Positions 10,937 through 36,867 of a stretch of DNA of 40,400 bases are shown one piece after another. The DNA is from an uncultured Blautia sp. (lineage in GTDB: Bacteria; Bacillota; Clostridia; Lachnospirales; Lachnospiraceae). The first letter of the stretch is position 1; every line of letters begins with the position of its first letter. Location of the stretch: positions 1 to 40,400 of the forward strand of contig CAMOQF010000007.1 of assembly GCA_946622645.1 (NCBI GenBank), given 5' to 3'. The position numbers were made by a program, and so were the translations under genes. The notes below the pieces were generated by a model. The model made no database searches, had not been told where the DNA came from, and worked only from the letters and a program-made list of their open reading frames with translations.

Positions 10937-11040
10937 CCTTTTATTGTTCGATCTCTCGCTCAGGTTTAGCACCTTCCTGCACAACAGGGGTTGCCGTGGT
11001 TTCATCGATCCTATGTATCTCCGCCACTCTGAATAAAAGG
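10937..11040 (-). promoter_or_regulatory. SAM-I (S-box) riboswitch aptamer
   Basis: The minus strand upstream of metK has the S-box core: CGATGAAACCACGGCAACC in the P2/P3 region, AAGGTGCTAAACCTG in the J3/4-P4 region and GAGAGATCGAAC before the closing helix. P1 is formed by CCTTTTATT (5' side, 11040-11032) with AATAAAAGG (3' side, 10945-10937). A terminator hairpin follows. The known S-box role is to shut off transcription when SAM is abundant, so metK is under product feedback control. Confidence 0.93.
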
Positions 11041-28432: not shown

Positions 28433-28462
28433 AAAAAACGCCTGAATTCTCAGGCGTTTTTT
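28433..28462 (+). terminator. Terminator after hydF
   Basis: A 13-bp perfect stem (28433-28445 with 28450-28462) and a 4-nt loop, with T6 at the 3' side. It separates the maturation genes from the hydrogenase structural operon. Its symmetric A/T flanks could allow function in both directions. Confidence 0.92.
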
Positions 28463-28484: not shown

Positions 28485-28513
28485 TTGACAGCAAAAGGTC
28501 TCTTGTGTATAAT
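28485..28513 (+). promoter_or_regulatory. Promoter of the hydrogenase structural operon
   Basis: Perfect TTGACA (28485-28490), a 17-bp spacer and perfect TATAAT (28508-28513). This is the strongest promoter match in the window and lies 110 bp upstream of hydC. Confidence 0.88.
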
Positions 28514-28523
28514 TATTGAGGCG

Positions 28524-28573
28524 AAACTTCCCGTATGAGGGGGTAGTCTGCCCTTATGCGGACAGAAGTTTTT
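28524..28573 (+). promoter_or_regulatory. Long hairpin in the hydC leader
   Basis: AAACTTC (28524-28530) pairs with GAAGTTT (28565-28571). CCGTATGAGGG (28531-28541) pairs with CCCTTATGCGG (28551-28561), allowing G-U pairs. Only ACA (28562-28564) is unpaired on the 3' side, and the apical loop is 9 nt. The stem ends in TTTTT, so it may act as an attenuator or an mRNA 5' stabiliser. It begins about 5 nt from the predicted transcript start. No known riboswitch was recognised. Confidence 0.6.
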
Positions 28574-28622: not shown

Positions 28623-29120
28623 ATGAAGAAAGTAGCCAGCAAAGTTCCCTTTAAAGGAACTGAGGAACAGGCACTCGCACTTCAGAAGGTCATCGATGAG
28701 AACAAGCATGACAAGAGCAACCTGATGGTCGTCATGCAGAAGGCTCAGGACATCTATGGATACCTTCCCTACGAAGTACAGATTGCCATCGCTGAGGGAA
28801 TGGACGTTCCCTTCGAGAAGGTTTACGGCGTATCGACCTTCTATGCACAGTTTGCCCTTTCACCGAAAGGGGAATACAATATTTCGGTATGTCTTGGCAC
28901 AGCATGCTATGTCAAGGGATCAGGAGATATTTTCCAGAGACTCCAGGAAAAACTGGGGATCGGCCCGGATGAGTGCACCGCGGACGGAAAATTCTCTCTC
29001 ACTGCAGCAAGATGCGTAGGCGCCTGCGGTCTTGCACCGGTTATGATGGTAAACGACGATGTTTACGGCAGGATCACAGTAGACGATGTAGACAACATTC
29101 TCGGCAAATACGCTGAATAA
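28623..29120 (+). CDS. hydC: NuoE-like [2Fe-2S] subunit of electron-bifurcating [FeFe]-hydrogenase
   Basis: Thioredoxin-fold ferredoxin subunit (HydC/HndA/NuoE type) of the multimeric hydrogenase, which passes electrons between the HydB flavin site and HydA. The 165-residue protein has the helical N-terminal domain (VMQKAQDIYGYLPYEVQ) and four cluster cysteines, C90 and C95 (CLGTAC) with C131 and C135 (CVGAC). GGAGG lies 8 nt before the ATG. It is first in the structural operon and is separated from hydB and hydA by seven genes, six of which form the signalling-like module. Confidence 0.94.
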   Translation: MKKVASKVPFKGTEEQALALQKVIDENKHDKSNLMVVMQKAQDIYGYLPYEVQIAIAEGMDVPFEKVYGVSTFYAQFALSPKGEYNISVCLGTACYVKGSGDIFQRLQEKLGIGPDECTADGKFSLTAARCVGACGLAPVMMVNDDVYGRITVDDVDNILGKYAE

Positions 29121-29137: not shown

Positions 29138-29494
29138 ATGAAGATCAGCACTGTAAAAGAGCTTTTAAACGCCCGGGTGCTCTGTGGTGAAGAAGAGCTG
29201 AACAGGCACGTGTATTCCGCCTGCGGCTGCGACATGATGAGCGATGTCCTTGCCTATGTAAAGGATCAGGCGGTACTGCTTACCGGTCTGGTCAATCCTC
29301 AGGTGGTAAGAACGGCAGAGATGATGGATATGGTATGCATCGTCTTTGTCAGGTCCAAACAGCCGACGGAGGCCATACTGACGCTGGCCAGGAATTCGGG
29401 AATAGTCGTGATGGCTACCGATATGCGGCTCTACGAGGCCTGTGGAAGGCTCTATTCCAACGGGCTTCAAAAGGAAGAAGTCCAGAATGTCTGA
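29138..29494 (+). CDS. DRTGG-domain protein (first copy)
   Basis: A 118-residue protein consisting of a single DRTGG-type domain, a small alpha/beta module known as a putative ligand-binding part of phosphotransacetylase-associated and CBS-containing proteins. Visible features are VKELLNARVLCGEEELNRHVYSA and the Ile/Val-rich strand ending VMATDMRLYEA. It is a paralogue of the protein at 31247, and the function of both is unknown. It overlaps the next gene by 8 bp. Five cysteines in 118 residues are noticeable but do not form a recognised cluster motif. Confidence 0.78.
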   Translation: MKISTVKELLNARVLCGEEELNRHVYSACGCDMMSDVLAYVKDQAVLLTGLVNPQVVRTAEMMDMVCIVFVRSKQPTEAILTLARNSGIVVMATDMRLYEACGRLYSNGLQKEEVQNV

Positions 29495-29912
29495 ACCTCT
29501 GGTTTTCCACTACGAGGTGGACGGGTCTGATTTTACTTCAGCCGGGACCGCGTCAGTTGCTGTCAAAAAAAGTCTGCGACAGCTGGGTCTTCCTTCTGAG
29601 GTGATCAGAAAGCTTTCCATCGCCATGTATGAAGGCGAGATCAATATGGTGATCCATGCCAACGGGGGCACCGCCGACGTGATCGTGACCGAAGATCATG
29701 TCGACATTGTCTTAAAGGACAACGGCCCTGGTATACCGGATGTCGAAAAAGCCATGCAGGAGGGTTACTCCACCGCGACGGCAGAGATCCATTCTCTGGG
29801 CTTCGGTGCCGGTATGGGCCTTCCCAACATGAAGCGCTATTCGGACGAAATGTCCATAGAGACAGAGCTCGGCGTCGGGACCACCATAAGAATGAGAATC
29901 AACATGGCATGA
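29487..29912 (+). CDS. RsbW-like ATPase (anti-sigma/serine kinase fold)
   Basis: A 141-residue GHKL-fold ATPase of the short type, as in anti-sigma factors and serine kinases, with no histidine phosphoacceptor domain. The N-box is in MYEGEINMVIHANGG, the G1 box is DNGPGIP and the G2-like loop is GFGAGMGLPNMKRYSD. The ATG at 29487 is chosen because it has AAGGA upstream and overlaps the DRTGG stop by 8 bp; a longer reading would overlap much more. It could phosphorylate or sequester a partner protein; no partner with a STAS domain is encoded in this window. Confidence 0.83.
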   Translation: MSEPLVFHYEVDGSDFTSAGTASVAVKKSLRQLGLPSEVIRKLSIAMYEGEINMVIHANGGTADVIVTEDHVDIVLKDNGPGIPDVEKAMQEGYSTATAEIHSLGFGAGMGLPNMKRYSDEMSIETELGVGTTIRMRINMA

Positions 29913-29990
29913 TTCAAAAAAGGATCGTAAAAGTGCCGGGCACTGCAGCGGTCCGTGAATCGACAGACAAAGACAAGAAAAGGAGGAGAC

Positions 29991-31250
29991 ATGGATTCAT
30001 ACGAACATTCCGTGCTGCTGGATCATCAGAAATGTACAGGATGTACGACCTGCCTCCATCATTGCCCTACAGAAGCCATCAGGATCAAAAACAGCAGCGC
30101 CGTCATCAACCAGGACCGCTGCATAGACTGCGGGGAATGCATCCGCATCTGTCCCAATCACGCCAAGCGCGCCGAGACGGACAGCATCGATGTCATGAAG
30201 CGTTTCCGCTACAGGATCGCGCTTCCGGCTCCCAGCCTCTACGGTCAGTTCAACAACATGGACGACGTAGACTATATCCTGAACGGACTCAAAAAGATCG
30301 GTTTTCATGACGTATATGAAGTGGCCAAAGCCGCTGAGCTGGTTTCGGCCTACACCAGAAAGTACATGAAAGCCGACGGGATCGCCCGTCCGCTCATCAG
30401 CTCCGCCTGTCCCGCGGTGCTCCGGCTTATTTCTCTGGTCTACCCCTCTCTGGAGGATCATGTGCTTCACATGCTCCCGCCCATGGAGGTGGCTGCGGAC
30501 CTTGCAAGAAAAAAAGCCAAAGAAGAACACCCGGAACTGGAAGACTCGGATATCGGCGTCTGCTTTATCTCGCCCTGTCCTTCCAAGATGAGCTACGTGC
30601 ACAACAATTTCGGGGAATACAAAAGCAAAGTGGATGCTGTGGTAGCCATCAGCGATGTGTACTTCCGCCTCCTGGACGTCATGAAACGTGACGAAATCAT
30701 GGAAAACCTGTCGGAGACAGGAATGAACGGTATCATCTGGGCCGAAAGCGGCGGCGAATCCACCGCCATCCTCAACGAGGATTATCTGGCCGCGGATGGG
30801 ATCGACAATGTCCGGATGGTGCTGGAGGAGATCGAAAACGGCAATATCCAGCATGTCAAATTTGTAGAACTGAATGCCTGTCCCGGCGGTTGTGTGGGAG
30901 GAGTCCTTACGGTACAGAATCCCTTCATTGCAAAGAGCAGACTGCGGGCCATCAGCCGATGTCTGCCGATGGCAGTTAACTTTCCGGATAAGGATGAACA
31001 GTATATCCCGGATAATTTCCTGTTTGGCGAAATGCCGGCGTACGTACCCATGTCGAGGCTCAGCAGCAATATCGGCGAATCCATGCGGATGATGGCCGAT
31101 ATTCAGCGGATCAGGGGTATGCTTCCCGGGATCGACTGCGGCGCCTGCGGTGCTCCGAACTGCAGAGCTCATGCGGAGGATATCGTGCGGCAGGGCATCA
31201 AAGAGGTCTCCTGCCCCATCCTGATTGCAAGAGGAGAAACAGGGAAATGA
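29991..31250 (+). CDS. HydS-like [FeFe]-hydrogenase homologue with ferredoxin and FeS domains
   Basis: A 419-residue protein. It has an N-terminal 2[4Fe-4S] ferredoxin (C15, C18, C21, C25 and C44, C47, C50, C54), a shortened hydrogenase H-cluster domain and a C-terminal FeS domain of the RnfB type (C383, C386, C391, C408). All three H-cluster loops are recognisable but altered: L1 ISSACPAV (C140), L2 ISPCPSKM (C196) and L3 NACPGGCVGG (C297, C301). The four cluster-ligand cysteines are kept, but the proton-relay cysteine of catalytic enzymes is Ala139, as described for sensory hydrogenases. A role as an H2 or redox sensor is inferred. AGGAGG precedes the ATG by 6 nt. Confidence 0.82.
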   Translation: MDSYEHSVLLDHQKCTGCTTCLHHCPTEAIRIKNSSAVINQDRCIDCGECIRICPNHAKRAETDSIDVMKRFRYRIALPAPSLYGQFNNMDDVDYILNGLKKIGFHDVYEVAKAAELVSAYTRKYMKADGIARPLISSACPAVLRLISLVYPSLEDHVLHMLPPMEVAADLARKKAKEEHPELEDSDIGVCFISPCPSKMSYVHNNFGEYKSKVDAVVAISDVYFRLLDVMKRDEIMENLSETGMNGIIWAESGGESTAILNEDYLAADGIDNVRMVLEEIENGNIQHVKFVELNACPGGCVGGVLTVQNPFIAKSRLRAISRCLPMAVNFPDKDEQYIPDNFLFGEMPAYVPMSRLSSNIGESMRMMADIQRIRGMLPGIDCGACGAPNCRAHAEDIVRQGIKEVSCPILIARGETGK

Positions 31251-31573
31251 AAGTTTCCGATCTTTTAAACAATGGCTTTTTGGAGATCACCCTTCCCGAC
31301 GGAGATCGGGAGATAGACGGTGTTTATATCGGGGATCTGCTGAGCTGGGTCATGGGAAGGGCTTCCCAGGACAATGCCTGGATCACCATCATGTCAAACA
31401 TCAATGTGATCGCGGTGGCGACTCTGGCGGACACAGCCTGCGTGATCCTTGCGGAAGACGTGGATCTTCCCGAGGATGTAAAAGCCCAGGCCGAAATAAA
31501 GGACATCAACGTTCTCAAAAGTCCGCTCCCCATCTACGAAACAGCCGTAAGGCTTCATGAGCTTCTGTCATGA
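31247..31573 (+). CDS. DRTGG-domain protein (second copy)
   Basis: A 108-residue single-domain protein related to that at 29138. It has MKVSDLLNNGFLEITLPDGDREI, a central GDLLSWVMGRAS and a hydrophobic strand VIAVATLADTACVILAED. It joins both neighbours by ATGA overlaps (31247-31250 and 31570-31573), so it is translationally coupled to the HydS-like protein before it and the PHP protein after it. The specific ligand is unknown. Confidence 0.75.
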   Translation: MKVSDLLNNGFLEITLPDGDREIDGVYIGDLLSWVMGRASQDNAWITIMSNINVIAVATLADTACVILAEDVDLPEDVKAQAEIKDINVLKSPLPIYETAVRLHELLS

Positions 31574-32307
31574 GCCGTTACACATATGACCTGCACGTAC
31601 ATTCCTGTCTTTCGCCCTGCGCGGACAACGACAATACGCCAAACAACCTGGCCGGAATGGCCGTGCTGAACAATATTCAGATCCTGGCCCTGACAGATCA
31701 CAACAGCTGCAGGAACTGTCCCGCGTTTTTCACCGCGTGCAAACGGTACGGCATCATCCCCATACCGGGCATGGAGCTCACCACGTCGGAGGATATCCAC
31801 GTCGTCTGCCTCTTCCCGGAGCTGGAGGATGCGCTGCGGTTCAATGACGAGGTGGATACATACCGGATCCGGTTTCCCAACAACAAAGAGATCTTCGGGG
31901 ATCAGCTGATCCTGGACGGCGAGGATGAAGTGATCGGCGAAGAGCCCGACTTTCTCACCAACGCCACCAACATCTCTTATGAAGATGTTCCCGGGATCGT
32001 TGAAAAATACGGAGGCGTCTGCTACCCGGCGCATATCGACCGCCAGGCAAACGGCGTCATCGCCGTGCTCGGCACTCTTCCGCCGGAACCGGACTATCCG
32101 GCCGTGGAGCTGCACTTTCAAAAAAACATCGAGGAATATACAAAGGAATACCATCTGGAAGACAAACTGGTCCTGGTGAGCTCGGACGCCCACTATCTGC
32201 AGGACCTGCGGGAAGACAACGAGTCTCTTGAAATTCCGGATGAGCCTTATTCCGGAGCGCTGGTCAGACACAATCTGATCCGGATCATCAAGGGAGAAAA
32301 GCTGTGA
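31570..32307 (+). CDS. PHP-domain metal-dependent phosphoesterase
   Basis: A 245-residue PHP-superfamily hydrolase. Metal-ligand motifs are DLHVHSCLSPC (H9, H11), LTDHN (D43, H44), PGMELTT (E69), H77, YPAHIDR (H155) and SSDAHYL (D206, H208). This set is like YciV/TrpH-type nucleoside 3',5'-bisphosphate or short-RNA phosphatases, but an insert of about 70 residues lies between E69 and H155. The substrate is unknown. Coupled in the operon with signalling-like ATPases, it might hydrolyse a nucleotide messenger, which is inference only. Confidence 0.84.
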   Translation: MSRYTYDLHVHSCLSPCADNDNTPNNLAGMAVLNNIQILALTDHNSCRNCPAFFTACKRYGIIPIPGMELTTSEDIHVVCLFPELEDALRFNDEVDTYRIRFPNNKEIFGDQLILDGEDEVIGEEPDFLTNATNISYEDVPGIVEKYGGVCYPAHIDRQANGVIAVLGTLPPEPDYPAVELHFQKNIEEYTKEYHLEDKLVLVSSDAHYLQDLREDNESLEIPDEPYSGALVRHNLIRIIKGEKL

Positions 32308-32876
32308 AGGAACTGTCGCTTAATATTCTGGATATCACCGAAAATTCCGTGAAAGCCGGCGCGGCCCTCACCTCCATCCTCGTCGATGAGGAGGGCAATA
32401 CACTGAAGCTTACCATAGAGGACAACGGATCGGGCATGTCCGAAGAAGTTTTGAAAGGCGTCACGGATCCGTTTTATACCACCCGGACCACCCGCAAGGT
32501 GGGCATGGGCCTTCCGCTCTTAAAGCTGGCGGCCGAACAGACGGGGGGTTATATGACGGTGCAGTCCAAAACCCGCGAAGCCGATCCGGAGGATCACGGA
32601 ACCAAAGTGGAAGCCCTGTTTTATCAGGACAGTATTGATTTTACCCCCCTGGGAGATGTGGTATCAACCATCTGCACATTGATCCAGGGGCATCCGGATA
32701 CGGATTTTTACTTTCGACACAAAATCCGGAAGCCGGATAAAGACGTTCTTGTGGAAATGGACACACGACAGATACGGGAAGTTTTGGACGGTGTTCCACT
32801 GAACGAATATGAAGTCATCAAGTGGATCGAGGAATACTTGAATGAACAGTATACCGGTCCTCATGATACAGAATAA
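32304..32876 (+). CDS. Histidine-kinase-like ATPase lacking a phosphoacceptor domain
   Basis: A 190-residue GHKL ATPase. The N-box is DITENSVKAGA, the G1 box is DNGSGMSEEVL, an ATP-lid follows (TTRTTRKVGMGLPLLKL), and G3 is seen as HGTKVEALF. The C-terminal 80 residues have no recognised domain. There is no HisKA or transmembrane segment, so it is not a complete sensor kinase; it may act with the other module proteins. It starts from a GTG overlapping the PHP stop (GTGA). Confidence 0.8.
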   Translation: MKELSLNILDITENSVKAGAALTSILVDEEGNTLKLTIEDNGSGMSEEVLKGVTDPFYTTRTTRKVGMGLPLLKLAAEQTGGYMTVQSKTREADPEDHGTKVEALFYQDSIDFTPLGDVVSTICTLIQGHPDTDFYFRHKIRKPDKDVLVEMDTRQIREVLDGVPLNEYEVIKWIEEYLNEQYTGPHDTE

Positions 32877-32893: not shown

Positions 32894-33265
32894 ATGAAAT
32901 CTTTGGCGGAACTTCAGAAAATCAAAGCCAGGATGCAGGACAAGGTTGTTCTTCGCGAGGGCTCGGGCGATGTCCGTGTAGTCGTGGGTATGGCCACATG
33001 CGGGATCGCTGCAGGCGCGAGACCCGTGCTGAACGAGTTTGTAAAAGATGTCAATGAGGAGAATCTTTCCGACAAGGTGACAGTCTCTCAGACCGGATGC
33101 ATCGGTATCTGTCAGTATGAGCCTGTCGTTGAGATCTTCGAGGCAGGAAAAGAAAAAGTTACCTATGTAAAGATGACGGCGGATAAGGCTAAAGAAGTCG
33201 TCGAGAAGCACCTGAAGGGCGGCCAGGTCGTGGAACAGTACACGATCGGCGCATATCAGTCTTAA
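32894..33265 (+). CDS. Thioredoxin-fold [2Fe-2S]-type protein (HndB/HydD-like)
   Basis: A 123-residue protein like the HndB subunit of NADP-reducing hydrogenase clusters. The fold resembles the N-terminal domain of HydB and the C-terminal domain of HydC: VVVGMATCGIAAGARP, then QTGCIGICQYEPVVE. Only three cluster cysteines are visible (C36, C69, C73). The first Cys of the usual Cx4C pair is Val31, so a complete [2Fe-2S] cluster is uncertain. AGGAGG precedes the ATG by 8 nt. It is probably a subunit or assembly partner of the HydABC complex encoded around it. Confidence 0.82.
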   Translation: MKSLAELQKIKARMQDKVVLREGSGDVRVVVGMATCGIAAGARPVLNEFVKDVNEENLSDKVTVSQTGCIGICQYEPVVEIFEAGKEKVTYVKMTADKAKEVVEKHLKGGQVVEQYTIGAYQS

Positions 33266-33282: not shown

Positions 33283-35103
33283 ATGATAAGATCACAGGTA
33301 CTTATCTGCGGCGGTACCGGCTGTACGTCATCCGGCAGCCCCAAGATCCGCGCGGAATTCGAAAAACAGATTCAGAATTATGACCTGCAGGATGAGATCA
33401 AGCTGGTCCAGACCGGATGTTTCGGACTTTGCTCCTTAGGCCCGGTCGTGATCGTCTATCCGGACGGCACTTTCTACAGCCGCGTCACCGAAGCGGATGT
33501 TCCCGAGATCGTCGAAGAGCATCTGTTAAAAGGACGTCCGGTTGATCGTCTGGTGTACAACGACACCGATGCAGCTCCGACAGACACACATACCGAGACC
33601 GCTCTTTCCGAGACCCGCTTCTACAAAGCGCAGAAGAGAGTCGCTCTTAGGAACTGCGGTGTGATCGATCCTGAAAACATCGAAGAATACATTGCCATGG
33701 ACGGCTATGCCGCTCTGGGCAAAGCCCTTACGGAAATGACTCCGGAAGACGTTATCAAATGCGTTACGGATTCCGGATTAAGAGGCAGAGGCGGCGGCGG
33801 ATTCCCCACCGGACGTAAGTGGGCTCTCTGCGCTCCCAACAAAGCGCCTCAGAAATATGTAGTCTGCAACGCCGACGAAGGTGACCCGGGCGCATTCATG
33901 GATCGTTCCGTTTTGGAAGGCGATCCCCACGCCATCATCGAGGCCATGGCCATTGCCGGTTACGCCATCGGCGCTACCAAAGGCTATGTCTATGTACGTG
34001 CAGAATATCCCATCGCCGTCAAACGTCTTGCCATCGCCATCGGCCAGGCCAGAGAGTACGGCCTTCTGGGTGAAAACATTTTTGACTCCGGCTTCAGCTT
34101 TGATCTGCAGATCCGCCTCGGCGCAGGCGCATTCGTCTGCGGTGAAGAGACAGCTCTGATGACCTCCATCGAGGGCAACAGAGGCGAGCCTCGTCCCCGT
34201 CCGCCTTATCCGGCAGTCAAGGGTCTGTACGGCTCTCCCACCGTTGAAAACAACGTTGAGACCTTCGCGAACATCCCGCAGATCATCCTGAAAGGTGCGG
34301 AATGGTTTGCATCCATGGGTACCGAAAAGTCCAAAGGAACCAAGGTCTTCGCGCTCGGCGGCAAGATCAACAACACCGGTCTTGTGGAAATTCCCATGGG
34401 CACCACGCTCCGCGAGATCATCGAGGACATCGGCGGCGGTATCCCGAACGGCAAGAAGTTCAAAGCTGCTCAGACCGGCGGTCCTTCCGGCGGATGTATT
34501 CCGGAGTCCCTGATCGATACGCCTGTCGATTATGATAACCTGACAGCCATCGGCTGCATGATGGGTTCCGGCGGTCTTATCATCATGGATGAAGACACCT
34601 GTATGGTCGATATGGCCAAGTTCTTCCTTGACTTCACGGTAGACGAGTCCTGCGGTAAATGTACGCCCTGCCGTGTCGGCATGAAGAGACTGATGGAGAT
34701 GCTCGAAAAGATCACCAAGGGTCAGGGTACCCTGGAAGATCTGGACAAGATCGAACAGCTCTGCTATTACATCAAAGAGAACTCTCTCTGCGGTCTGGGA
34801 CAGACAGCTCCCAACCCGGTGCTTGCAACGCTGAAATTCTTCCGTGACGAATATGTCGCTCACGTGGTCGACAAGAAGTGTCCGGCCGGCGTATGTAAGG
34901 ATCTGCTGTCCTTCAGCATTGACAAAGAAAAATGTATCGGCTGCGGTCTCTGCGCAAGAAACTGCCCGGTCAACACCATTACCCGCACAGATTATATCGC
35001 ACCCGGACATAAACTGGCCTCCTTCGAGATCCACCAGGATAAGTGTGTCAAGTGCGGAGCCTGCATGGCCAACTGTAAGTTCAAGGCCATCAGTAAACAG
35101 TAA
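33283..35103 (+). CDS. hydB: NuoF-like flavin subunit of electron-bifurcating [FeFe]-hydrogenase
   Basis: NAD(P)H- and FMN-binding subunit (HydB/HndC type), 606 residues. An N-terminal thioredoxin-like [2Fe-2S] domain (C9, C14, C46, C50) is followed by the FMN/NADH core: GRGGGGFPTGRKW near 168, GAGAFVCGEETALM near 279 and the N3-type cluster SCGKCTPCRVG (C457, C460, C463 plus a later C). A C-terminal 2[4Fe-4S] ferredoxin has C552, C555, C558, C562 and C588, C591, C594, C598. This architecture matches bifurcating enzymes that couple NADH plus reduced ferredoxin to H2. It lies between the HndB-like gene and hydA. Confidence 0.95.
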   Translation: MIRSQVLICGGTGCTSSGSPKIRAEFEKQIQNYDLQDEIKLVQTGCFGLCSLGPVVIVYPDGTFYSRVTEADVPEIVEEHLLKGRPVDRLVYNDTDAAPTDTHTETALSETRFYKAQKRVALRNCGVIDPENIEEYIAMDGYAALGKALTEMTPEDVIKCVTDSGLRGRGGGGFPTGRKWALCAPNKAPQKYVVCNADEGDPGAFMDRSVLEGDPHAIIEAMAIAGYAIGATKGYVYVRAEYPIAVKRLAIAIGQAREYGLLGENIFDSGFSFDLQIRLGAGAFVCGEETALMTSIEGNRGEPRPRPPYPAVKGLYGSPTVENNVETFANIPQIILKGAEWFASMGTEKSKGTKVFALGGKINNTGLVEIPMGTTLREIIEDIGGGIPNGKKFKAAQTGGPSGGCIPESLIDTPVDYDNLTAIGCMMGSGGLIIMDEDTCMVDMAKFFLDFTVDESCGKCTPCRVGMKRLMEMLEKITKGQGTLEDLDKIEQLCYYIKENSLCGLGQTAPNPVLATLKFFRDEYVAHVVDKKCPAGVCKDLLSFSIDKEKCIGCGLCARNCPVNTITRTDYIAPGHKLASFEIHQDKCVKCGACMANCKFKAISKQ

Positions 35104-35121
35104 GAAGGGAGCCGGATAAGA

Positions 35122-36867
35122 ATGGAAAAAATGATTAATTTAACGATTAACGGTATTCCTGTCAGCGTTCCGGAGAATACTACCATCCTTGAAGCGGCCC
35201 GTCAGTCGGGAGTGGAGATCCCCACCCTGTGCTTCATGAAAGACAAGAACGAGATCGGTGCCTGCCGTATCTGTGTAGTAGAGGCAAACGGCCGTATAGT
35301 TACATCCTGCGTATTCCCGGTAGCGGAAGGAATGGATGTCCGCACCAATACCGCAAGGGTTCAGAAAGCAAGAAAGACCACTCTGGAACTTATGCTTTCC
35401 GTACATCAGAAAGAGTGCCTGTCCTGCGTACGTTCCACCAACTGCGAACTGCAGAAACTCTGCAGAGAGTACGGCGTGGACGAGCATGCGTTTGAAGGCT
35501 TCCGCCCGATCTACGAGCTGGATACCTCCATGCCGCATCTGGTCAGAGACAACAACAAATGTATCCTTTGCCGCCGCTGCGTGGCAGCCTGCAACGAACA
35601 GTTTGTATCCGTCCTGGGTGCCAATGACCGTGGTATCGATACCTACATCGGCCAGGCCTTCGGCATGTCCCTGGTAAATACGCCCTGTATCGCCTGCGGT
35701 CAGTGTACGGTTGTATGTCCCACAGGCGCTCTGATGGAAAAGGACGACACCGATAAGGTATGGGCTGCTCTGGCAGATCCCTCCAAGAAGGTCATCGTGC
35801 AGACCGCTCCCGCAGTCCGCGCCACCCTGGGCGAATGCTTCGGCATGGCTCCCGGAACCAACGTGGAAGGCAAAATGGCCGCTGCTCTTCGTCGTCTGGG
35901 CTTCTACAAAGTCTTTGATACCGACGCAGGTGCCGACCTGACTATCGTAGAAGAAGCAAACGAGCTGGTAGAGCGCATGAACAACGGCGGTGTTCTTCCC
36001 ATGATCACCTCCTGCTCACCCGGCTGGGTCAAATTCTGCGAGACCTATTACGGCGATCTGACCCCGCATCTGTCCACCTGCAAGTCTCCGCACACCATGA
36101 TGGGTGCCGTGATCAAGACCTACTGGGCAGAAAAAGAAGGCATCGATCCCAAGGATATCGTAGTGGTTTCCGTGATGCCCTGTACCGCCAAGAAGTTCGA
36201 GATCGGACGCGATGACGAAGATGCTTCCGGATATCCGGATGTCGACGTTGTGATCACCACCAGAGAACTTGGCCGCATGATCGATCGTGCAGGTATCCAG
36301 TTCACTGCCCTTCCGGATGAAGAATTTGACAGCCCGCTCTCCGAGGACACCGGCGCAGCCGTTATCTTCGGCGCTACCGGCGGCGTTATGGAGGCAGCTC
36401 TCCGTACCGCAAACGACTGGCTCACCGGCAAGGATAACACAGATGTAGACTTCCATGCAGTCCGTGGTACCGCAGGCCTCAAGCAGGCAGAAGTCGACAT
36501 CGCAGGCACAAAGATCAAGGTAGCCGTAGGAAGCGGCGCTGCAGCAGCAAAAGTCATCATGGACAAGCTTGCAGCCGGCAATCCTGAAGGCTGGGCCTTC
36601 ATCGAGATCATGGGATGCCCCGGCGGCTGCGTAAACGGCGGCGGACAGCCCTATCAGCCGCAGTATGTGCGTGACACCGTAGACCTGAAGGCGGTTCGTG
36701 CAAAAGCCCTGTATGATCAGGACCAGGCCATGACCCTCCGCAAGTCTCACGAGTCACCCTTCATCAAGACTCTGTATTCCGAGTGGTATACCGAAGGCTT
36801 CGGAAAAGGCAAAGCACATCACGATCTGCACACCTCCTATGTCAAACGTGATAAATTTGTCAAATAA
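35122..36867 (+). CDS. hydA: [FeFe]-hydrogenase catalytic subunit (bifurcating type)
   Basis: Catalytic subunit of 581 residues that reversibly forms H2. Domains in order: an N-terminal [2Fe-2S] ferredoxin (1 to about 78), a His/Cys [4Fe-4S] site (HQKECLSCVRSTNCELQKLC), a 2[4Fe-4S] ferredoxin (CILCRRCVAAC, CIACGQCTVVCPTG), the H-domain and a short small-subunit-type C-terminus. L1 is TSCSPGW (C298), L2 MPCTAKK (C354), L3 MGCPGGCVNGGG (C499, C503). L1 has Ser after C298 where the monomeric Clostridium enzyme has a second Cys. It is the last gene of the operon; GGAG lies 11 nt before the ATG. Confidence 0.96.
   Translation: MEKMINLTINGIPVSVPENTTILEAARQSGVEIPTLCFMKDKNEIGACRICVVEANGRIVTSCVFPVAEGMDVRTNTARVQKARKTTLELMLSVHQKECLSCVRSTNCELQKLCREYGVDEHAFEGFRPIYELDTSMPHLVRDNNKCILCRRCVAACNEQFVSVLGANDRGIDTYIGQAFGMSLVNTPCIACGQCTVVCPTGALMEKDDTDKVWAALADPSKKVIVQTAPAVRATLGECFGMAPGTNVEGKMAAALRRLGFYKVFDTDAGADLTIVEEANELVERMNNGGVLPMITSCSPGWVKFCETYYGDLTPHLSTCKSPHTMMGAVIKTYWAEKEGIDPKDIVVVSVMPCTAKKFEIGRDDEDASGYPDVDVVITTRELGRMIDRAGIQFTALPDEEFDSPLSEDTGAAVIFGATGGVMEAALRTANDWLTGKDNTDVDFHAVRGTAGLKQAEVDIAGTKIKVAVGSGAAAAKVIMDKLAAGNPEGWAFIEIMGCPGGCVNGGGQPYQPQYVRDTVDLKAVRAKALYDQDQAMTLRKSHESPFIKTLYSEWYTEGFGKGKAHHDLHTSYVKRDKFVK

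Follow-up and report, generated by a model that had tools for sequence, protein, structure and literature searches.

A conserved gene block around a group D [FeFe]-hydrogenase and an RsbW-like kinase, a probable signalling unit beside bifurcating hydrogenase genes

What do six genes for a second hydrogenase homologue, two ATPase homologues, two DRTGG proteins and a PHP-domain protein do inside the operon of a bifurcating hydrogenase? The question is raised by a 40,400-nt stretch of DNA from an uncultured Blautia sp. (assembly GCA_946622645.1, contig CAMOQF010000007.1), referred to here, at its whole length, as the window. The initial annotation had read these genes as a signalling unit in which a hydrogenase-like sensor reports to two ATPases. 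We conclude that the block is probably a conserved signalling unit around a group D (M2e) [FeFe]-hydrogenase homologue, here called HydS; the co-occurrence of the genes, the fusions between them and the sensor features of HydS all support that part of the proposal. Its further suggestions, a PHP enzyme that removes a messenger, a signal that reaches both ATPases and ligand binding by the DRTGG proteins, gain no support here. What we revise is the centre of the unit, which we place on the RsbW/SpoIIAB-like kinase homologue, and its surroundings, which also include Rnf. We describe it as DRTGG–kinase–HydS–DRTGG–PHP plus a HydE of the Acetobacterium woodii type, with HydS sometimes missing while the kinase and the first DRTGG protein remain. 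We see about an even chance that the products form a soluble sensory complex, built on the serine kinase, that controls ferredoxin/NAD-linked complexes. 'HydE-like ATPase' denotes the sixth gene of the block in the A. woodii sense, not the radical-SAM maturase HydE, and the two DRTGG proteins are called DRT1 and DRT2.

Conservation of the block, its fusions and its variants

We surveyed 299 genomes drawn evenly from the phylum, using the HydS of the window (P0003) as the query at E ≤ 1e-60, and detected matches in 117 of them, at 123 places, all of which were read including flanks of up to about 9 kb per side. Genes were labelled by competing profiles that were seeded with the window proteins and then iterated, and loci too near a contig end were dropped from each count, the denominators being the remaining ('evaluable') places. 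All six genes stood together in 80 of 106 evaluable places and in 31 of 39 families. This grouping is far beyond chance in the survey, and it reaches beyond the close relatives of the window, a point on which the initial annotation had made its proposal hinge. The kinase lay directly upstream of HydS in 112 of 119 places; a DRTGG gene was found upstream in 97 of 119 and downstream in 110 of 116, PHP was present in 97 of 113, and the HydE-like ATPase was in view in 103 of 116. Among named relatives (the best 80 of 154), all six genes occurred in 57 of 57 evaluable loci, as they did in 9 of 9 evaluable contigs among 11 labelled Coriobacteria, Atopobiaceae or actinobacterium. The placement of the block between hydC and hydB is confined to the window and its near relatives, because hydC is the leading gene in all 57 evaluable named relatives versus 1 of 106 survey places, the window itself; hydC lay downstream of HydS in 84 of 106.

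The closest partner of HydS is the kinase. A kinase profile of 29 rows, applied to the same 299 genomes with a limit of 1e-25, matched 126, the weakest match having an E value of 2.2e-49 with a gap from there to the limit. HydS and kinase were both present in 116 genomes, HydS only in 1, kinase only in 10 and neither in 172 (Fisher p = 9e-70, a value that ignores kinship between genomes). Distance correlations across the 42 loci holding all nine proteins (HydS–kinase 0.84, HydS–HydA 0.91) are consistent with joint inheritance and are not discriminating, and the HydB alignments are disturbed by long fused forms. HydB homologues of about 1,000 amino acids, some 400 of them extra, were observed in block loci L138, L139, L141, L146, L147, L152, L158, L203, L207, L215, L219, L224 and L234.

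Fusions between neighbouring genes were found for DRT1 and the kinase (nine loci, families f66, f117 and f96), for PHP and the ATPase (six loci, all of family f41), for HydS and DRT2 (two loci, family f62), for the kinase and HydS (one locus, L158) and for the ATPase and the 2Fe-2S protein (one locus, L128). They track the gene order, and every junction of the six is covered except DRT2–PHP. In all six f41 loci the strand opposite to the block carries hydC, fdx and hydB, so the ATPase belongs with the block there.

Three of the ten kinase-only genomes do have HydS next to the kinase, but split or cut by a contig end (L259, L263, L269), and in one locus (L268) the contig edge is reached. HydS-less at the limits used are seven loci from six genomes (L260, L261, L262 and L264–L267), all of which keep DRT1 and the kinase; L262, L265 and L266 retain DRT1, DRT2, PHP and ATPase. 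The kinase has a long N-terminal extension in four of the seven (L262, L264, L265, L266), and Pfam identified tandem CBS domains in the extended kinases of the three that were scanned (L262, L264, L266).

Five of the seven HydS-less loci have RnfC in view; in raw counts that include contig-cut loci, so do 22 of 123 survey loci, from nine families. At 101 evaluable survey places, hydB or hydA was in view in 87 and RnfC in 20, of which 18 were with hyd genes and 2 without; both were absent from 12. The block stands with Rnf and no hydABC in view in L154, L159 and L166. A separate set of 14 loci, picked to span families among 46 group D places within the taxonomic order of the window, adds three Rnf neighbourhoods (L172–L174). 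NCBIfam confirmed the Rnf identity of one RnfC-D-B set and of a second RnfC; the others were assigned by profiles built from those. A bifurcating hydrogenase adjoining Rnf is already known from Tepidanaerobacter (PMC4374699; here and throughout, citations refer to the available excerpts of the source). We found no published link of the block to Rnf in the literature searched.

Features of the six proteins

Judged from its sequence, HydS has every feature examined of a group D (M2e) [FeFe]-hydrogenase as set out by Land et al. 2020 (PMC8163306). It is composed of an N-terminal 2x[4Fe-4S] region, an H domain with the four H-cluster cysteines, and a C-terminal Cx2Cx4Cx16C motif. None of the 16 cluster cysteines is replaced by another residue in any readable row (213–217 of 217 aligned relatives); those of the C-terminal motif (C383, C386, C391 and C408) are Cys in 216, 216, 216 and 213 of 217 rows, the rest being unreadable. 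The cysteine corresponding to CpI C299 is lost, its place being taken in the window by A139, just before the first H-cluster ligand, and in the 216 readable rows by A (159), S (50), T (5), N (1) or H (1), never by Cys. The position of CpI M353 is S194 in the window, and S, T or A in 134, 81 and 2 of 217 rows; CpI numbering was placed on HydS by eye from the motifs. A Pfam scan found no PAS domain in the HydS of the window, in agreement with group D and not with group C. The proposal that HydS is a sensor stands, because all cluster cysteines are kept and the usual proton-transfer cysteine is gone.

TamHydS (PMC8163306, PMC13104023) shares with HydS the cluster motifs, the C299 and M353 replacements, the lack of PAS and a trimeric bifurcating hydrogenase nearby; the fixed kinase/DRTGG/PHP/ATPase set, the fusions and the HydS-less versions go beyond the TamHydS account. 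Land et al. pose as a question how signal transduction by group D is achieved, and a 2026 TamHydS paper calls knowledge of the native TamHydS complex limited.

The kinase contains the GHKL box (E-x3-N, DxGxG and G2 box), with N53, D78, G80 and G82 in 207 of 207 aligned rows and E49 in 206; we assume the SpoIIAB numbering of the box. Its best solved homologue is SpoIIAB (1til, E = 3e-9). It shares homology and the kinase box with the SpoIIAB/RsbW anti-sigma kinases, but it is a distinct family that misses the curated equivalog cut-offs (TIGR01925, 58.5 versus 135 bits; the others, 25.5 versus 145 and 21.5 versus 155.05). Unlike theirs, its partners are DRTGG proteins and HydS or CBS domains, and no STAS antagonist or sigma gene was found among the six block genes; the two STAS matches of the genome sit on other contigs (C114 and C33).

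For DRT1 we found both a PF07085 match above the cut-off and a DRTGG fold, the fold comparison covering DRT1; PF07085 matches 19 of 22 DRT1 proteins at E ≤ 0.001. The DRT2 match is marginal, at 25.7 bits, and 24.9 in a six-frame search, against a cut-off of 25.2. S35 and T49 of DRT1 occur in 193 of 193 rows and D32 in 192, and D30, S33, T47 and N53 of DRT2 are without exception in 193–195 readable rows. The invariant serine (S35 in 193/193 rows, S33 in 193/193 readable rows) was considered as a phospho-acceptor for the kinase. This candidate is weakened by L204, the one copy of family f48 that was aligned: the serine is not simply a kinase substrate, because that copy retains it with no kinase beside it.

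The PHP protein has a complete set of the His, Asp and Glu residues that we take to be metal ligands (H9, H11, D43, H44, E69, H77, H155, D206 and H208, each at 1.00 when rounded and with gaps excluded, 190 rows); no solved relative was found by sequence at E ≤ 0.01. The nearest solved relatives of the HydE-like ATPase by sequence are histidine kinases. Its predicted model (pLDDT 91) was compared by Foldseek; among the 50 matches listed MutL (1bkn) leads, with E = 3.6e-7 and TMq 0.52, and none is a histidine kinase. Among the 123 survey loci the ATPase directly follows hydC in 74, out of 95 that show both genes, with the full order hydC-ATPase-FDX-hydB-hydA in 60, and directly follows PHP in 28; in L124 it lies with hydC on the strand opposite to the block. 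A. woodii HydE, encoded in the hydA1–hydE operon, is described as not part of the active enzyme, and 'assembly or signalling' has been suggested for it (PMC3315566). We liken the two by gene position and description: both are GHKL ATPases whose genes adjoin hydC, in the survey at least, since in the window the block separates the two. The ATPase described here differs in being tied also to the sensor block, including the PHP fusions.

The window operon and other hydrogenases

The six ORFs occupy 29138–32876 on the + strand in the order first annotated, between hydC and hydB/hydA, the last two spanning 33283–36867 (Table 1). The overlaps also hold as annotated: 8 bp between DRT1 and the kinase, counted with the kinase start at ATG 29487, ATGA at 31247, ATGA at 31570 and GTGA at 32304. 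The kinase–HydS junction is a 78-nt gap and hydC–DRT1 a 17-nt gap. Besides the six genes, a thioredoxin-like 2Fe-2S protein is encoded between the block and hydB. Upstream of the operon start lie hydE, hydG and hydF, which encode maturases, and a terminator-like site (28433–28462) ahead of the promoter match.

Table 1. Features of the window operon, in genomic order
Feature	Position	Strand	Basis
Sigma-70-type promoter, TTGACA-17-TATAAT	28485..28513	+	12/12 consensus positions
hydC, NuoE-type 2Fe-2S subunit	28623..29120	+	PF01257 4e-50
DRTGG protein 1 (DRT1), 118 aa	29138..29494	+	PF07085 28.7 bits, cut-off 25.2
RsbW/SpoIIAB-like GHKL kinase homologue, 141 aa	29487..29912	+	PF13581 3e-12; PF02518 also
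Group D (M2e) [FeFe]-hydrogenase homologue (HydS), 419 aa	29991..31250	+	PF02906 and PF04060
DRTGG protein 2 (DRT2), 108 aa	31247..31573	+	PF07085 25.7 bits, marginal
PHP-domain phosphoesterase homologue, 245 aa	31570..32307	+	PF02811 6e-11
GHKL ATPase without HisKA (HydE-like), 190 aa	32304..32876	+	PF02518 4e-13
Thioredoxin-like 2Fe-2S protein, HydD/HndB position	32894..33265	+	PF01257 1e-6
hydB, NuoF-type	33283..35103	+	TIGR01959 503.6 bits, below cut-off 558.65
hydA, group A NADH-dependent [FeFe]-hydrogenase	35122..36867	+	NF040763 843.6 bits, cut-off 765

The complete promoter match recurs in 6 of 74 upstream regions (the window, L034–L037 and L041). Between promoter and hydC, an imperfect hairpin contains the leader element GGGGGTAGTCTGCCC (28539–28553). 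Elements resembling GGG-GTA-TATGCCC occur in 7 of 74 upstream regions versus 0.15 expected on shuffles. We rejected an attenuator upstream of hydC as a candidate: only L081 and L091 are independent matches, because the pattern was drawn from the other five (the window and L034–L037). Rfam gave no match at the element; elsewhere in the window it identified a SAM riboswitch (RF00162, 67.7 bits, 10938–11039, - strand).

The same genome carries rnfC on another contig. At L258 6215–11014 it has a SpoIIE-type phosphatase and a third hydrogenase that follow a group C-like hydrogenase in an hfs-like order; the label group C is one we assume from similarity. In the 299 genomes the phosphatase and HydS are both present in 64, HydS only in 53, the phosphatase only in 30 and neither in 152 (p = 5e-12, kinship between genomes ignored). 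A kinase arm (group D) and a phosphatase arm (group C) could oppose each other. In Ruminococcus albus and Thermoanaerobacterium, a connection between group C HydS/HfsB and the control of other hydrogenases has been reported (PMC11837493). Close to group D HydS genes we also found proteins in which a hydrogenase domain is joined to a chemoreceptor signalling domain (L132 6534–8447) or to PAS and a histidine kinase (L138 12469–14772). Like these group C-like sensory hydrogenases (L132, L138, L258), group D HydS joins a hydrogenase domain to the same C-terminal FeS domain as a putative signalling input. The group C-like genes have the SpoIIE phosphatase gene adjoining in L177 and L258, and PAS occurs among the scanned proteins in L138 only; group D differs in lacking PAS and in having as its proposed output a separate RsbW-like kinase.

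A kinase-centred reading and its alternatives

We infer the signal, the binding between the proteins, the activity and target of the kinase, the direction of control and the roles of the DRTGG, PHP and HydE-like proteins as follows. HydS would respond to H2 or, via its 4Fe-4S relay, to the potential of ferredoxin, and would convey this state to the bound kinase through the [4Fe-4S] domain at its C terminus, with DRT1 as an adaptor on the kinase and DRT2 on HydS. The kinase would in turn set the activity or amount of the neighbouring ferredoxin/NAD-linked complexes, which are the bifurcating hydrogenase and, in other species, Rnf; phosphorylation of a partner protein would be the simplest means. 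A second arm, made up of PHP and the HydE-like ATPase, may reverse or gate the signal, and in some HydS-less loci the fused tandem CBS domains may be the alternative input of the kinase. A more specific form, possible though doubtful, is a widespread plug-in RsbW-type sensor kinase in which constant DRTGG partners replace STAS and the input comes either from an [FeFe]-hydrogenase, as H2/ferredoxin redox, or from a pair of CBS domains, as adenylate state. In this form the bifurcating hydrogenase and Rnf, as the two main ferredoxin:NAD complexes in anaerobes, would be phosphorylated or gated directly.

Several observations weigh against a kinase-centred sensory complex. The six genes include no sigma factor, STAS protein or DNA-binding regulator, and the window shares with five near relatives a hyd promoter of plain sigma-70 consensus type. 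Fusions of adjacent genes may arise without function, and the RnfC figures are raw counts. The block counts start from genomes that bear HydS or the kinase, not from those that bear hydABC. In the set drawn from the window's own taxonomic order, just 1 of 13 evaluable loci has the complete six together; the first five are present in 8, PHP in 8 and the ATPase in 6. HydS-less loci keep DRT2 and the ATPase in only five of seven cases and PHP in three; with only part of the set kept, the six genes are not inseparable. Nor are CBS domains a strict substitute for HydS, since a CBS-kinase stands alongside HydS in L166 (by Pfam) and L129 (by eye). Family f48 has HydS copies without kinase, PHP or ATPase (L204, L210, L217, L223, L225, L230), the serine retained in L204 counting on the same side, and family f104 has a kinase–HydS pair without DRTGG or PHP (L132, L188, L191, L208). 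Five of the six f48 loci carry DRTGG-FDX-hydC-hydB-hydA, and a different function is possible there. Large histidine-kinase-like genes are present in all four f104 loci, and Pfam response regulators adjoin in L132 and L188.

The resemblance of the kinase to SpoIIAB raises the alternative of classical partner switching, in which an RsbW-like anti-sigma factor would act on a sigma factor and a STAS antagonist encoded elsewhere, with the group C-linked SpoIIE phosphatase as counter-enzyme. The co-occurrence of that phosphatase with HydS fits this account, as do the two STAS matches of the genome, one of which (L271) has an adjoining ORF that is RsbW-like by eye. We nevertheless regard it as rather unlikely, given the absence of sigma and STAS genes from the block, the scores far below the SpoIIAB/RsbW equivalog cut-offs and the sigma-70 consensus of the hyd promoter in the window clade. 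Unlikely, too, is an assembly or repair set for Hyd and Rnf, with the ATPase as a MutL/Hsp90-like clamp, DRTGG and PHP proteins handling cofactors and HydS as scaffold or electron donor. MutL/PMS2 and Hsp90-type N-domains do lead the 50 Foldseek matches listed for the ATPase, and assembly was one of the roles suggested by the A. woodii authors, but among solved chains its sequence is nearest histidine kinases, the cluster ligands of HydS are complete, the CBS domains of the kinase point to sensing, and the block is found beside Rnf with no hydABC in view.

A circuit in which an adenine nucleotide is sensed by DRTGG (and CBS) domains and hydrolysed by PHP, with HydS only gating, appears improbable: the six genes include no synthase, and PHP is missing from 16 of 113 evaluable survey places. 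Finally, the reversible but slow H2 turnover of TamHydS (PMC8163306) would suit a HydS that is itself a slow catalyst, moving electrons between H2 and either ferredoxin or HydABC, with the rest of the genes tuning HydS alone. The replacement of the proton-transfer cysteine in every readable row, and the occurrence of kinase and DRT1 without HydS, make this very improbable.

The initial annotation had pointed to similar sets in Clostridia, correctly: the association is not new, because the gene list is already in print. The ten-gene hydrogenase operon Halsa_1862–1871 of Halanaerobium hydrogeniformans is listed as HydA, NADH dehydrogenase, ferredoxin-like, histidine kinase, NuoE, PHP, two FeS/hydrogenase ORFs, an anti-sigma factor and an ORF (PMC4237134), and gene positions are also given in PMC3561251 and PMC3608648. 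The list matches ours, with DRT2, HydS and DRT1 equated by position, not sequence; unlike the present account, it comes without a function or a link to Rnf or CBS in the available excerpts. We found no published function for the whole set in the open-access literature searched. New here are the survey and the fusions, together with the link to Rnf, the CBS version that lacks HydS and the place of the kinase as closest partner of HydS.

Group D hydrogenases have so far been studied as purified enzymes, and the block could explain how an orphan sensory hydrogenase signals. The recurrent partner set and the fusions suggest which proteins touch, which makes the question of the group D signalling partner directly testable. 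Together, the Rnf neighbourhood and the HydS-less versions suggest that, in fermenting anaerobes, the balance between hydrogen production and ion pumping may be governed by a single kinase unit.

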